Source: Desulfobulbaceae bacterium
Lineage (GTDB): Bacteria > Desulfobacterota > Desulfobulbia > Desulfobulbales > Desulfocapsaceae
Direction: 5' to 3'
DNA length: 64,000 bases
Assembly: GCA_024640625.1 (NCBI GenBank)
Contig: JAHEER010000008.1
Coordinates: forward strand, 1-64,000
Of this stretch, positions 436 through 8,600 are shown piece by piece (the stretch's first letter is position 1; each line of letters begins with the position of its first letter). Under the pieces are notes generated by a model. The model saw nothing but the letters and a program-made list of their open reading frames with translations, made no database searches and was not told where the DNA came from. The translations under genes and the position numbers were made by a program.

Positions 436-3069
436 CTAGTCGACCAATTCTGCCTCTACCACTTCCGGCTCGGGACTGGCGGCAGTAAAGACAATGCCAT
501 TGGTGTCGGCATCAACAAGGATCACCGCGTCATCTGCGAACTTGTTCTCCAGAAGGTCCATGGCCAGAGGATCTTCAACATGCTTTCTGATGGCTCGCTT
601 GAGGGGCCGGGCGCCAAAAAGCGGGTCATAGCCAACCGCAACGAGGTACTTTTTGGCGTTCTGGCTGAACCGCAGCTTCAGCTTCTGATCTTCCAAACGC
701 TTAGCCAGCCGTTGAAGCTGGATGGCGACTATGGACGACATATCCTCCCGGGAGAGTGATTTGAAAATGATGGTTTCATCGATGCGGTTGAGAAATTCAG
801 GCTTGAACTGGTTATGAAGGATTTCCTCAACCTGGCGCCTGATGCTTTCCGCATCGGCATTTTCTTCCGCCATTCTCATGATCAGATCACTGCCCAGATT
901 GGAGGTCATAATCAGTATGGTATTCTTGAAGTCAACCGTCCTGCCTTTGCCGTCAGTCATTCTGCCGTCATCGAGGACCTGAAGAAGTACGTTAAAAACG
1001 TCGCTGTGGGCCTTTTCGATTTCATCGAGCAGGATAACAGAGTAAGGTCTACGGCGGACTGCTTCGGTAAGGTAGCCGCCTTCTTCATAGCCGACATAGC
1101 CTGGAGGGGCACCAATGAGGCGCGCTACCGAGTGTTTCTCCATAAATTCGGACATGTCAATCCTGATCATGGCCTGTTCACTGTCAAACAGAAAATCGGC
1201 CAGAGACCGGGCCAACTCAGTTTTTCCGACTCCGGTCGGACCGAGGAAAATAAAAGACCCAAGCGGTCGGTCGGGATCCTGAAGGCCAGCCCTGGCCCTG
1301 CGCACGGCATTGGCCACGGCGACGATCGCCTCCTGCTGCCCGACGACACGCTTTTGTAACATGGCCTCAGCTTGGAGAAGCTTTTCCTTTTCACCTTCGA
1401 GCAGCTTGTCCACCGGGATTGAGGTCCATTTGGCCACTACTGCTGCCACATCTTCACTGCTCACCTCTTCCTTGAGCATATGATGCTGGCTCTGGATCTC
1501 CTGGAGCCTCAGGTTTTCCTTTTCAAGCTGTTGCTCCAGGGCCGCGATCGTTCCATAACGGAGCTCAGCTACCTTGCTCAAATCGCCGATTCGTTCTGCC
1601 TGTTGCGCTTCTACCTGAGCTTTTTCAATGTCCTCTTTTATCTTGCGAATACTGCCAATGGTGTCGCGTTCCAGTGTCCACTGTGCCTTCATACCGTTGA
1701 GCTGGTCGCCGAGATCGGCAAGTCGTTTCTGGACGGCTTCAAGCCGATCCTTGGAGGCCTTATCCTGCTCTTTTTTCAATGCTTCCTGCTCAATTTCCAG
1801 TTTGATCCGCTTGCGGTCGAGTTCGTCAATCTCGGTTGGCATCGAATCGATTTCAATGCGCAGCCTCGAGGCCGCTTCATCGATGAGGTCGATTGCCTTG
1901 TCGGGCAGGAAGCGGTCAGTAATGTAGCGGTTGGAGAGCACCACAGCGGCAACGGTGGCCGTATCCTGTATCCTGACACCGTGGTGGAGCTCGTATTTCT
2001 CCTTGATACCGCGCAGGATAGCGATAGAATCCTCTTCACTGGGCTCCTGAACGAGGACCGGCTGAAACCTCCTCTCCAGGGCGCTGTCCTTCTCGATATA
2101 TTTCCTGTACTCATCGAGCGTGGTGGCCCCGACACAATGCAGTTCCCCTCTTGCCAGCGCCGGCTTCAGCATGTTGGAGGCATCCATGGAACCTTCGGCT
2201 GCACCGGCACCCACAAGGGTATGGATTTCATCGATAAATAAAATGATTTCCCCGCTTCTTTTTTCGATCTCTTTAAGAACCGCTTTCAGACGGTCTTCAA
2301 ACTCCCCGCGATATTTGGCTCCTGCGACCAGGGAGCCCAAATCGAGGGTAACGACCTGTCTGTCTTTCAGGGTTGCCGGTATATCACCATTGACGATCCG
2401 CTGGGCAAGCCCTTCGACGATGGCTGTCTTGCCCACACCCGGCTCACCGATCAGCACGGGATTGTTCTTGGTTCGCCTGGAGAGCACCTGGATGATTCGA
2501 CGAATCTCCTCGTCGCGGCCGATAACCGGATCGAGCTTTCCCTGTTTGGCGATGTCGGTAAGGTTTTTGCCGTATTTTTCCAAGGCCTGATATTTTTCTT
2601 CCGGATAGGGGTCGGTGACCCGCTGATTTCCGCGGATAGAAGTCAGGGCCTGTAAGAAGTTCTGCTCAGAGATACCCATTTTGCTGAGCTGATCAGCCAA
2701 AGACAACTTTCGCTCCTTTAGCAGGGCCAAAAATATGTGCTCCTGGCTTACGTATTCATCCTGCATCTGTGAAGCGACCGAAAACGAGTTGTCCAGAAGA
2801 CGTTTCAATTCTGCAGAAACGTATACCTGAGTGGCTCCCGATCCGGACACCCTGGGCAGGGACTGAACCTGTTCGTTAACCAGGGCCAAAACCCTGGAGG
2901 GGTCGATGCCCATTTTCTGCAAGGCAGGAACAACAACGCCATCGGGCTGCTCCAGGATGGCTTTGGTCAGGTGGGCCGGGGTGATCTCCTGGTTGCCGCT
3001 GCTCTCGGCAAGCTGTTGGGCACTCTGAATCGCTTCCTGCGATTTCAGGGTGAATTTATCGAATTGCAT
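436..3069 (-). CDS. clpB: ATP-dependent disaggregase ClpB
   Basis: An Hsp100 chaperone that threads aggregated proteins through a hexameric ring, working with DnaK/DnaJ/GrpE in the cytoplasm. The 877 residues match the usual ClpB length. Visible in order are the Clp N-domain (about 1-145, starting [20 protein letters not shown]), AAA-1 with Walker A GEPGVGKT at 208-215 and the arginine-finger region ALERRFQPV, the long coiled-coil middle domain (roughly 410-530, rich in Glu/Lys/Gln), and AAA-2 with Walker [10 protein letters not shown], Walker [12 protein letters not shown] and sensor GARPLKRAI. The start follows an AGAGGCG ribosome-binding site, and a good sigma-70-like promoter lies about 60 bases upstream. 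No CIRCE element was found. Confidence 0.97.
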
Positions 3070-3192: not shown

Positions 3193-3230
3193 AAAAAGAG
3201 AAGGTGGATTTACTGAGTAAATCCACCTTC
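3193..3230 (-). terminator. Rho-independent terminator of the HesB-like gene
   Basis: The inverted repeat GAAGGTGGATTTACT / AGTAAATCCACCTTC (3200-3230) forms a stem of at least 13 perfect pairs with a very small loop. On the minus strand it is followed by CTTTTTG. It lies 30 bases after the stop codon of the selenoprotein gene, so that gene has its own promoter and terminator. Confidence 0.85.
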
Positions 3231-3260
3231 TTAAAATACCTCGAGTGGTACGTGTCAGAA

Positions 3261-3596
3261 TCAGCCGCAGCCGTTTGAACCGCAGGATCCTGAAGAACAT
3301 CCACCTCCCCCGATGGGGTTGGTCGAAGATATGCCAAAACCTGAGCGTGGTCCTGCCTCAATGTATTCCACATTGATAGCTCCACAGGTTTCCAGCAGAC
3401 TGTCCTCTACCAGAAAGGTCAGTTCGCTTTGGTCGTAGACTTTGTCGTTTTCTTTCGGCTCATCCAGAGCCAATCCCAGGGAGGGACCGGATCAGCCGCC
3501 CTGCATCAGGGCGACGCGCAGGGCTGAATCAATATTATTCTGGCTGAGATACTCTTTGAGTTTTGTCGCTGCCAGGTCGGTTACGGTTAGAGACAT
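3261..3596 (-). CDS. HesB/IscA-like selenoprotein (in-frame UGA at 3494-3492)
   Basis: A 111-residue A-type Fe-S carrier-like protein interrupted by one in-frame UGA at codon 35. The N-terminal part (MSLTVTDLAATKLKEYLSQ, then DSALRVALMQGG) is typical HesB-like. The UGA falls exactly where the family has its first conserved Cys, giving GG-U-SGPSLGLALDEP. The frame then runs on uninterrupted through a normal HesB core to a Cys-rich C-terminus with GGGGCSSGSCGSNGCG. Upstream are a GAGGAGG ribosome-binding site and a consensus promoter; a hairpin of SECIS type follows the UGA, and a strong terminator ends the unit. HesB-like selenoproteins are an established family in sulfate-reducing bacteria, so Sec insertion is far more likely than a nonsense mutation. 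Selenocysteine genes (selA, selB, selC) are not in the window. The exact role, Fe-S transfer or redox, is not known from sequence. Confidence 0.9.
3455..3473 (-). promoter_or_regulatory. Candidate bacterial SECIS hairpin inside the HesB-like gene
   Basis: On the mRNA (minus strand) GGCUC-UGGAU-GAGCC (3471-3457) forms a perfect five-pair stem with a five-base loop containing GG. A U-G and a U-A pair extend it to 3473-3455. It begins 18-20 bases after the UGA (3494-3492), within the range usual for bacterial SECIS elements read by SelB. The structure was judged by eye, not folded by program. Confidence 0.65.
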
Positions 3597-3680
3597 GTAA
3601 AACCTCCTCTAATTTTAATAGTACGGGTTTCTCGTACCTCAGATGCCCTCACGGCATAGGGTATTCTCGTATTTGCCAAC

Positions 3681-3709
3681 ATCATAAGCCCGCACCTATG
3701 AGAAGTCAA
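3681..3709 (-). promoter_or_regulatory. Promoter of the HesB-like selenoprotein gene
   Basis: TTGACT (3709-3704) and TATGAT (3686-3681) on the minus strand are 17 bases apart. Each differs from consensus at one position. The predicted start near 3674 gives a leader of about 78 bases before the ATG at 3596. Confidence 0.65.
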
Positions 3710-3923: not shown

Positions 3924-5009
3924 ATGAAAAAAGTCGTGATATCAACCGGCGGCGGGGATGCCCCCGGGCTTAACGCGGTAATTTATGCGGTGGTGCATGC
4001 ATGTTATCGACAGGGCTGGGAGGTATACGGCAGCAGGAGCGGCTACGCCGGATTTCTTGACATAGATGAAATGGTCAGACTGACTCCTCGAGACGTTCAG
4101 GAGATCTATGCAATTGGCGGTACTATCCTGGGGTCGACCAACAAAGGCAGCCCCTTTGCCAGACCTGTAGAGAATCTTGCAGGTGAAATCACACTGGTTG
4201 ATATCAGTGATAAGATAATGAAAAATTACAGGCGCATGGGGTTCGACTGTCATATCGCCATTGGCGGGGACGGCAGCCTGGAAATCGCCCATCGTTTTTC
4301 TAAACTGGGAATGAAGGTTATCGGCGTGCCGAAAACCATCGACAACGACCTGATGGCAACCGATCGAACCTTTGGTTTTGACACAGCGGTTTCCACGGCC
4401 ACCGAAGCTCTTGATAAACTGCATTCAACGGCGAAATCTCATGACCGGGTCATGGTGGTTGAGGTGATGGGCAGAGATTCGGGGTGGATCGCTCTCTATT
4501 CGGGAATATCGGGTGGCGCAGATGTCATCCTGATTCCGGAAATACCCTTTGAGCTCGAAAGCGTCTGTGAGAAGATAGCCGACAATGAACTGCGCGAGAA
4601 ACATTATTCTATAGTGGTTGTTGCCGAAGGTGCCCTAGCCAAAGGCGGAGAGATAATTTCCAAAGGAGAAGGGGAACTGGGACGCCAGGAGGTGATCCTG
4701 GGAGGTATCGGCGAATGGGTGGCCACTGAAATCAGAAAGCTGACTGACAAGGATACCCGCTCGCTGACCCTGGGCCATTTGCAGCGCGGTGGTTCACCTA
4801 CCACTTTCGACCGGCTGCTGGCACTGAGATTTGGAGCGGCGGCGGTAAGGCTGGTCGAGGCCGGAACCTTTGGTCACATGGTGGCCCTTGATTCGTCCCA
4901 GATGAAAGCGGTGCCCATAGAAGAGGCAATCAAGACCAGAAAGAAAGTGGATCTCACCAGTGATAAGATCTCAACCGCGCGGGATATCGGCATCTGTTTC
5001 GGCGATTGA
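3924..5009 (+). CDS. pfkA: 6-phosphofructokinase, mixed-signature (group III) type
   Basis: Phosphorylates fructose 6-phosphate to the 1,6-bisphosphate in glycolysis. The 361 residues show the phosphoryl-donor glycine loop (STGGGDAPGLNA, 8-18), GGDGS at 114-118, PKTIDND at 136-142 with the catalytic Asp, GRDSGWIALYSG, and HLQRGGSPTTFDR. Gly117 is the residue typical of ATP-dependent enzymes, where PPi enzymes have Asp. Lys137 is typical of PPi-dependent enzymes, where bacterial ATP enzymes have Gly. This combination defines the mixed-substrate subgroup, so the phosphoryl donor (ATP or PPi) cannot be settled here. PPi use would be relevant in a sulfate reducer, because sulfate activation releases PPi. 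The endonuclease III-like gene follows 15 bases later. Confidence 0.93.
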   Translation: MKKVVISTGGGDAPGLNAVIYAVVHACYRQGWEVYGSRSGYAGFLDIDEMVRLTPRDVQEIYAIGGTILGSTNKGSPFARPVENLAGEITLVDISDKIMKNYRRMGFDCHIAIGGDGSLEIAHRFSKLGMKVIGVPKTIDNDLMATDRTFGFDTAVSTATEALDKLHSTAKSHDRVMVVEVMGRDSGWIALYSGISGGADVILIPEIPFELESVCEKIADNELREKHYSIVVVAEGALAKGGEIISKGEGELGRQEVILGGIGEWVATEIRKLTDKDTRSLTLGHLQRGGSPTTFDRLLALRFGAAAVRLVEAGTFGHMVALDSSQMKAVPIEEAIKTRKKVDLTSDKISTARDIGICFGD

Positions 5010-5692: not shown

Positions 5693-8600
5693 CTAGAATT
5701 TGAGCAGCGAATCCCTCATAACATCTGCCTCCTCTTCACTGTAGCCCAGGCGCAGCAGCTCCTGTCGGTAATTGTCGAGCACCTTCCGGGCCTTGAGCGG
5801 ATTTTTATTCTCCATATATAATTTATACTGCAGGGCAACCCTTTCCTCATCTGAAAGCAGCAGTTTGTCGGTTTTCTCCAGCAGTGCCAAAGCTTCGTCC
5901 GAGCGTTTCAAGTTTGCCAGCGTCGTAGCCCAGGTTAGGCAGACACTACGCAAAGCATGGTGAATTTCGTCGATGTAGTCGGTGGCCTGGTCACCCTGAA
6001 AATAATCGGTATCGGTAAAACTCTTCCAACAACTGAGAGCGCTATAAAAAGCGTTGCCTGCCTGCCACCACAATTCACGTTTTCCCAAACTCAAGCCCTG
6101 CCGGGCCAGAGTGAGAAATTGGGCCGCGTCCACGGTGGTATTATTCAGTTGGACGTAGCTTTTTTCTACGCAGATATAGCGGGTGGGATCATCTATTTTC
6201 TCTGCCAGTACCTTCCTCAGCCTGCTGATCAGCGTATAAAATGTTTTACTGGCTTTGTCTGGCGGACTCTCGGGCCACAGGGCAAACTGAACATGGTCCT
6301 GGCTGATGCGAAAATCTGGTGAAGAAATAAGCAGGCCGAACAGTTCCCGCTGGTGCGTACTGAAATCCTTGAGGCTGAAAAGTTCTTCACCACCCAGGCT
6401 GATTGAAAAAGTCCCCAACACCTTGATGACCAACATGGGCAGGGGAGTGCCATTGTCGTCCAATGAGTGGAGCAGTCTTTGACGGGCAAGCTGGGTGGCG
6501 AAGTCAGGCTCTATACCCAATTTAACCGCGCGGGACAGCAACAGAAGCATGGTGGTGGGTTCCCAGCCCCAGAAAAAATCGTAACCAGATTCATTCATCA
6601 ATTCAAGCAGTCCGCGCAGGCGGGATTCCAGAGCAGCAACATTGTCACTTTTTAGCTCGATGTAGCTTAGATAGGCCAGCGCACAGGCCTGGATATAGGG
6701 AGAGGGGATCTGCTCACCAATGGTCATCGCCTGCTCCAGACAGCTCCGACTGTTATCGTAGCGCCCAAGAAGAGCCAGGACAGCACCCTTGATGGCAAAG
6801 TGGTAGCCTGTAAAGAAAGGTCCTCCTGCTCTGCTGCGCATCTCGGTGGACAGCTCTATATCATCAATGGCACTTTGTTCATTTCCCTGCAGAGAATGGA
6901 TCAAGGCTCGCCATTGCAGAAGCTGACTGGTCATGTGTTCGCTCGACGCTGTCTTGGAGACAAACATACCCTGTTCGATAAGATCCAATGCAGCGTTCAG
7001 CTGGCCGGTGGAGATCAGGCCAATGGCGGACCAGACGTAGAGATAGGGCGCCGCGACCGTTTGCCTGACTACTTCGCGGTCGACGCCCTCGAGCACCAGA
7101 TCCTTGTGGTAAGAAAACGCCTGAAAGCGGCCGAACATGGAAAGCTCGCAGAGCTGCATGACGTGCAGGGTCAACCGGTTGCTCATCCCGACCAGTGGGT
7201 CGCTGACCAAGGGGTAGGATTTTTCGATCTCCATCCTTGCTCTTCTACCGTCACCGCTGAGCAAGCCTATATAACCGAGAATGAATCTCGATGCAGCCAG
7301 AAAATTTTTTGAGCCGATGCGCTCGGCCAGATCACACCCCCGCCGGGCGTAATGGCGGGCAAGATCCATCTTGCCATCAAAAAAGCAGAACCCGGCTGCC
7401 AGGTTTCTCAACACCATGATGGAAATGTCGCGGGGAAGTTTCTTATGAATCGACTCGAAAAGCATCCTGGTCCGGCCAAGCAGTTCGGAGCCCTCGCGGT
7501 AGCGTCCCGATATGACAAAATGAAAATAGATGATCTGGGACAGGGCCATGAGTTCGCCGATCTGCTCATTGTTTTCTATGAATTTCTCTATGCAGGCCTG
7601 AAAATAGGGCAGGGTGGTCTGGGGTTGAAAATCGGTGGTCAAAAGCGCGTGGAAAAAACCCAACCAGCCGCAATCAAGTAAAGTTTGCTCCGGGATCGTC
7701 TGCAGAATTCCCAGAATCGTGACAGTACGATTGGCCGATATCAGTCTGAGGCCATGCTCTTTCAACACCAGTTCCATTCTCTGGTAATCTTCGCCGTGTC
7801 TCAGCGATTTCAGGGCCCGTTCGATCAGGTTGTGCTGGAGGTAATAATCGGCAGCCAAGCGGTAGATATCACCAATCGCTTCCGGGGCCAAGAGTTGCCG
7901 CCCCTTGGACTGGAGGAATTCCTGAAAGAGATGGTGGAAGCGGAACATTTTCGATGAATCGTCCAAATGGTAGACGAAAAAGTTCTGCTCGGCGATTTTC
8001 CTGAGGTGCACATCCAGGTGTTCGATATCGACCAGGCGGTGGGCAAAATCGATGTTGATTTCATCCAGGAAGCTGAGTTTTATGAATGTTTCATGAAATA
8101 TTTCAGGAATCTGGGTAAGAATCTCATCCTGGAAGAAGTTGAGCATAAAGCTATCAAGTCCTTTGCCGAAAAGGTCTGGTTTGCGGGTAATGACATTTTC
8201 CGGTTTTACCGATTTCCTGGCTCCGGCAAGGGGGCCGGAAGCGAGCACGATTCCCATGATCCAGCCGTTGGTGATGTCGAGAATCTGCTCGGCTTCGCTG
8301 CGAGCTATTTCTGCTCCGAAAACGGTGTGGTACAAATACTCGATATCTGTCAATCCAAGGGCGAGGTCGTCGCTGTCCAGGTAGATCACCGAAGGATTTT
8401 TACGAATCGCCCTGGCCTCCAGCTTGAGCGGGTGCCTGCTGATCAGGATGTAATGCAGGTTGGGCGGTGAGGTGTCGATCAGGTAGTCGAGGAGTTGGTT
8501 AGTGAGCTGCGCCTCGCCGATCAGATGAAGATCATCGAGCACTAGAAAGACTTCTGAATCAAGGGCTGCGTCGATATCGTTGAGTAAAATATTGGCACAG

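Follow-up and report, generated by a model that had tools for sequence, protein, structure and literature searches.

Does the in-frame UGA at codon 35 of a small HesB/IscA-like gene specify selenocysteine (Sec), or does it end the protein? The question is raised by a locus close to the start of a 64,000-nucleotide stretch of DNA from a Desulfobulbaceae bacterium (assembly GCA_024640625.1, contig JAHEER010000008.1; the whole stretch is referred to here as the window), the genome of which probably belongs to the genus Desulfofustis. The frame running on the minus strand from 3596 to 3261 begins with the ATG at 3596, comprises 111 residues and a stop, and contains TGA internally at codon 35 only; read through that codon, the protein is ...LMQGG(U)SGPSLGLALDEPK...GGGGCSSGSCGSNGCG. 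The gene is flanked by clpB and by a phosphofructokinase gene in divergent orientation, with the following features at the locus and on either side of it.

3261..3596, minus strand: HesB/IscA-family selenoprotein gene as predicted, 111 residues and stop (NF038090, PF01521, IscA fold)
3492..3494, minus strand: UGA codon 35, predicted to be read as selenocysteine; at the column of IscA's first conserved Cys (GGCSG)
3455..3473, minus strand: predicted bacterial SECIS hairpin UUGGCUC-UGGAU-GAGCCGA, loop 3466-3462 (codon freeze, fold, pairing)
3261..3263, minus strand: true stop codon, UGA again (some orthologues have TAA or TAG here)
3603..3608, minus strand: Shine-Dalgarno sequence AGGAGG, read from the sequence
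3681..3709, minus strand: possible sigma-70 promoter TTGACT-17-TATGAT (consensus match only, 10/12)
3199..3231, minus strand: intrinsic terminator, 15-bp stem followed by CTTTTT (strong)
436..3069, minus strand: neighbouring gene for the ClpB chaperone, outside the feature (TIGR03346, 1354 bits)
3924..5009, plus strand: neighbouring phosphofructokinase gene, divergent, outside the feature (TIGR02483, 461.5 bits)

A first-pass annotation, made from the letters of the window, had proposed the recoded gene and credited it with its own expression signals. The ribosome-binding site and the terminator are both present as described; the promoter is plausible and agrees with the consensus, but a match from a consensus scan is weak evidence when taken alone. 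The same annotation predicted that automatic pipelines would report a 70-residue fragment. A plain ORF finder does so, returning only a TTG-start fragment of 70 residues (3261-3473), although NCBI has a dedicated model for the family, NF038090, so that the prediction now holds only in part. At the locus Rfam gave nothing at its gathering thresholds, only sub-threshold chance matches, and a search with PADLOC returned no result.

Translated through the UGA, the protein scores 137.7 bits against the NCBIfam model NF038090 (“IscA_HesB_Se”; cut-off 85), matching profile positions 2-101 of 101, and 32.3 bits against PF01521 of Pfam (cut-off 26.3), which places it in the HesB/IscA fold family. TIGR01911 (HesB_rel_seleno) gave 52.7 bits, under its cut-off of 66.35, and the scores for the A-type equivalogs were all under theirs: 40.0 for IscA (cut-off 150.6), 39.2 for ErpA (117) and 36.2 for SufA (136.2). 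The C-terminal tail reads CX4CX4C (C100, C105, C110) and has no CGC motif of the IscA/SufA/ErpA kind. Alignment with Escherichia coli IscA and other A-type proteins of solved structure puts UGA35 on Cys35 of IscA, and homologues carry either Cys or Sec in this column, which bears out the earlier claim that the UGA replaces the first conserved Cys of the family. For the Cys version, AlphaFold gave a model with a mean pLDDT of 78, with low confidence in the tail and around residue 35; the best match of this predicted model among solved structures is E. coli IscA (1r94; E 1.6e-8, TM 0.69/0.78).

The age of the UGA codon could be addressed by comparison. We searched 97 relatives for the family. 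In 92 of them it scores above its cut-off, in most cases with a single in-frame TGA; 64 distinct UGA sequences and eight Cys copies were collected. TGA stands at codon 35 in every one of the 64 distinct UGA orthologues, all of the same order, and the context is always GG(U)[SA]G. An independent scan of 84,980 GTDB species genomes yielded 79 TGA and four TGC copies at this codon among its best 80 loci; the check suggested in the first-pass annotation, Cys or Sec at this column in homologues, came out in its favour. Compared with five close relatives, the window gene has a pN/pS of 0.04-0.17 after the UGA and 0.04-0.11 before it. The two sides are under purifying selection of much the same strength, in keeping with the good conservation on both sides noted in the first-pass annotation, and neither a frameshift nor relaxed selection is seen after the UGA in close relatives. 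With the TGA kept in 64 of 64 orthologues and a low downstream pN/pS, the conservation of the frame 3596-3261 lies far beyond chance, and the earlier reading of it as a single HesB-like gene, if UGA35 is Sec, stands; judged from these alignments, the UGA at codon 35 is ancient.

The terminal UGA (3263-3261) is taken as the true stop because TAA or TAG occupies its place in some orthologues, namely in 12 of the 75 UGA orthologues scored in the GTDB scan; that the final stop is likewise TGA had gone unmentioned in the first-pass annotation. UGA is the true stop in 63 of the 75 scored UGA-type orthologues, a case of one mRNA with two meanings of UGA.

Bacterial SECIS elements usually lie 16-37 nt from the UGA. 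At this locus a hairpin with a 7-bp stem and the loop UGGAU, which includes a G, follows the codon, with the loop starting 25 nt past the UGA; the signature of a bacterial SECIS is a small apical loop that contains G and comes immediately after the UGA (PMC1088965). Codons +7 to +12 (TTG GCT CTG GAT GAG CCA) are nearly frozen in the UGA copies: GCT, CTG and GAG are each found in 64 of 64, despite four-, six- and two-fold degeneracy, and mean pairwise codon identity is 0.91 across these codons as against 0.44 over the remainder of the gene. The eight Cys copies use more varied codons for the same residues, that is, they are mostly relaxed. The hairpin was found at 79 of the 79 UGA loci among the best 80 loci of the GTDB scan, and of that scan's four Cys copies, two keep the motif. 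Folding of UUGGCUC-[UGGAU]-GAGCCRA gave z = -3.07, and the stem pairs in 97.5% of cells; with the partner strand slid, the share falls to 14-55%. Because the stem is nearly invariant, compensatory double changes are not demonstrable in it. Since the codons are frozen in UGA copies but not in most Cys-encoding paralogues, we assign the hairpin at 3473-3455, which the first-pass annotation had missed, as a predicted bacterial SECIS element. The minimum-energy fold of a 53-nt segment that starts with the UGA gives another hairpin, which was set aside because its apical loop is only ~9 nt from the UGA and the conserved hairpin is the one at 25 nt.

Sec- and Cys-type HesB genes were found adjacent to one another at several loci (L042, in G033:C37; L024, in G096:C28; L101, in G014:C108; L188 and L210). 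The Cys copies in L188 and L210 retain a SECIS-like motif, which suggests conversion from Sec to Cys.

A search of the genome for selA, selB, selC and selD had also been suggested, and it succeeded in part. The window genome encodes selA (597.7 bits), SelD (366 bits, with an in-frame UGA of its own in TCGUAAK) and the formate dehydrogenase FdhA (830 bits, with UGA in the canonical context HCARLUHSPTVAGL), but no SelB match over cut-off was found in its 92%-complete assembly, and the matches of the tRNA-Sec (selC) model in that assembly are all genes for tRNA-Ser, -Leu, -Arg or -Phe. Among the relatives, congeners included, selB is over cut-off in 84 of 97 and tRNA-Sec is found in 88 of 97. In one congener (G001) a part of selB lies downstream of Mrp-like and MBL-fold genes (named by eye), and a contig of the window genome with such Mrp-like and MBL-fold genes (C210) ends within the MBL gene that adjoins selB in the congener. 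Near a transketolase-like gene lies the tRNA-Sec of two further congeners (G002, G004), and contig C129 of the window genome ends in a transketolase-like gene (last base 6455), about 2.3 kb before the congeneric position of selC; in a fourth congener (G003) a contig end cuts the tRNA-Sec itself. Because contigs break at or near the places that selB and selC occupy in congeners, we infer from this synteny that both genes exist in the organism and were lost to assembly gaps. The first-pass annotation had counted a genome without selB and selC against recoding; on its face the assembly is of that kind, which assembly gaps would explain. The case is a warning that a MAG's lack of the two genes is no evidence against the use of Sec.

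Breaks of this sort recur: contigs of Desulfofustis MAGs are repeatedly interrupted at or near selB and selC (G000:C210, G000:C129, G003:C204, G002:C115), which makes the absence of a gene from such MAGs an unreliable guide to Sec use. As for selA, it was not found in the single-contig genomes G009, G016 and G046, nor in G026. The apparent “Sec users without selA” (G009, G016, G046) are an artefact: selA adjoins an rRNA operon, and these stretches are masked as runs of N (for example, L137:502-5501).

The missing selB and selC, together with the fragment returned by the ORF finder, would also be expected if the gene were a pseudogene or carried a sequencing error, the UGA then being either a genuine stop or a fault of assembly, and the sequence beyond it decaying. 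However, 64 distinct orthologues, drawn from many assemblies made independently, have the same TGA, and the strong purifying selection downstream is accompanied by frozen SECIS codons; the comparative data refute this explanation, to which we attach practically no probability. Low-efficiency readthrough of UGA35 without Sec machinery, serving as a regulatory switch, has nothing specific in its favour, and against it stand the hairpin at a SelB-type distance, a codon freeze tied to the UGA copies, and the Sec genes of the window genome; it too is exceedingly improbable. Finally, the codon might be read as Cys, always or under selenium scarcity, by a selC*-type tRNA-Cys with an opal anticodon acting with SelB* and CysRS*. 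Reviews report selC*-type tRNAs for Desulfobacterales (PMC7609411, PMC9437257), and UCA-anticodon tRNA-Sec-like genes of selC* type are present in the same order as the window genome (G008, G024, G036, G057, G062, G067, G095), but a second tRNA-Sec-like gene was found neither in the window genome nor in its four congeners, and the near relatives G009 (one contig) and G025 have a single tRNA-Sec each and no second tRNA-Sec-like gene. Furthermore, selA with a Sec-type selD and fdhA in the window genome indicates genuine use of Sec. Cys insertion by selC* is disfavoured because no such gene was found in the window genome, its congeners or its near relatives, and we regard it as very unlikely.

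A second tRNA-Sec-like gene (54-62 bits) does occur in 14 of the relatives, and in 10 of the 14 a HesB-family gene without an in-frame UGA lies within ~5 kb of it (L123, L124, L125, L126, L127, L128, L130 and L132, from G095, G067, G021, G029, G062, G036, G057 and G008, together with G030:C30 and G059:C22). In those second tRNA-Sec-like genes whose anticodon was read, it is UCA or GCA, and these tRNAs resemble the selC* tRNA-Cys of PMC7609411; some of the loci additionally contain SelB-like, SelD or YedF genes. The Cys-type HesB paralogues of the relatives cluster with selC*-type tRNAs, whereas in the window the Sec-type gene is on its own. It is conceivable, if rather doubtful, that the HesB subfamily has a functional tie to selenium/cysteine recoding itself; it might, for instance, handle selenium or Fe-S clusters for the Sec or the selC* pathway.

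Returning to Sec, we consider it nearly certain that UGA35 is decoded by SelB and tRNA-Sec to give a HesB-like selenoprotein, similar to A-type Fe-S carriers and with a selenolate for Cys35 of IscA. Four lines of sequence evidence, namely the pairing of UGA with Cys in the alignment, the SECIS hairpin, the purifying selection and the Sec genes of the genome, lend the Sec decoding strong support, and decoding by SelB and tRNA-Sec would by extension operate in the window organism itself. What weighs against this reading is that selB and tRNA-Sec are missing from the assembly, that the nearly invariant hairpin offers no compensatory changes, and that the tail lacks the CGC motif of IscA, with low model confidence there and around residue 35. 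SelA would convert Ser-tRNA-Sec to Sec-tRNA-Sec with selenophosphate from SelD; SelB would bring the Sec-tRNA-Sec to the ribosome and bind the hairpin at 3473-3455, so that Sec is inserted at codon 35, and translation would end at the UGA of 3263-3261. The predicted product has the fold of the A-type Fe-S carriers (IscA/SufA/ErpA), with Sec for IscA Cys35; its tail is flexible and rich in Cys (C100, C105, C110). The most likely role we can propose is that the selenolate works jointly with the tail cysteines, either in ligating a labile Fe-S cluster or metal or as a redox-active group. The HesB-like protein would offer a clear example of Sec in what is presumed to be an Fe-S ligand position. 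Across this order of sulfate reducers HesB's UGA/Sec state is old and near-universal, and its SECIS is exceptionally constrained.

How does the gene compare with known systems? The selC* tRNA-Cys/selB*/cysS* system of Desulfobacterales (Mukai, 2017, as described in PMC7609411) would likewise read UGA, and selC*-type tRNAs are present in the same order; the window genome differs in that no such tRNA was found in it, its congeners or near relatives. With the A-type Fe-S carriers, E. coli IscA and SufA and HI1723 of Haemophilus influenzae, the window protein has the fold in common, its UGA falling on IscA Cys35, but it has Sec for that Cys, CX4CX4C for CGC, and ~25% identity. In NF038090 the window protein is a full-length member, 52 bits over the cut-off, that shares the core GG(U/C)SGPSLGLALDE and shows no notable difference. 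The HesB-like selenoprotein family of the selenoproteome surveys (TIGR01911) has in common with it Sec at the HesB Cys column, the UxGP motif (given for these proteins in PMC13188914) and an anaerobic deltaproteobacterial host, and differs by the sub-cut-off score. HesB-like proteins are among the Sec families listed for several Deltaproteobacteria (PMC1794560); the listings go back to the mid-2000s and take in Desulfovibrio, Syntrophobacter and Geobacter (PMC1794560, PMC1242214), in agreement with the statement of the first-pass annotation that they are known in sulfate-reducing bacteria, and the family also appears in the selenoprotein table of a 2026 review (PMC13188914). In Methanococcus maripaludis a HesB-like selenoprotein was identified through mutagenesis and 75Se labelling (PMC11097638). 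The window gene is an additional, well-supported member of this already described selenoprotein family.
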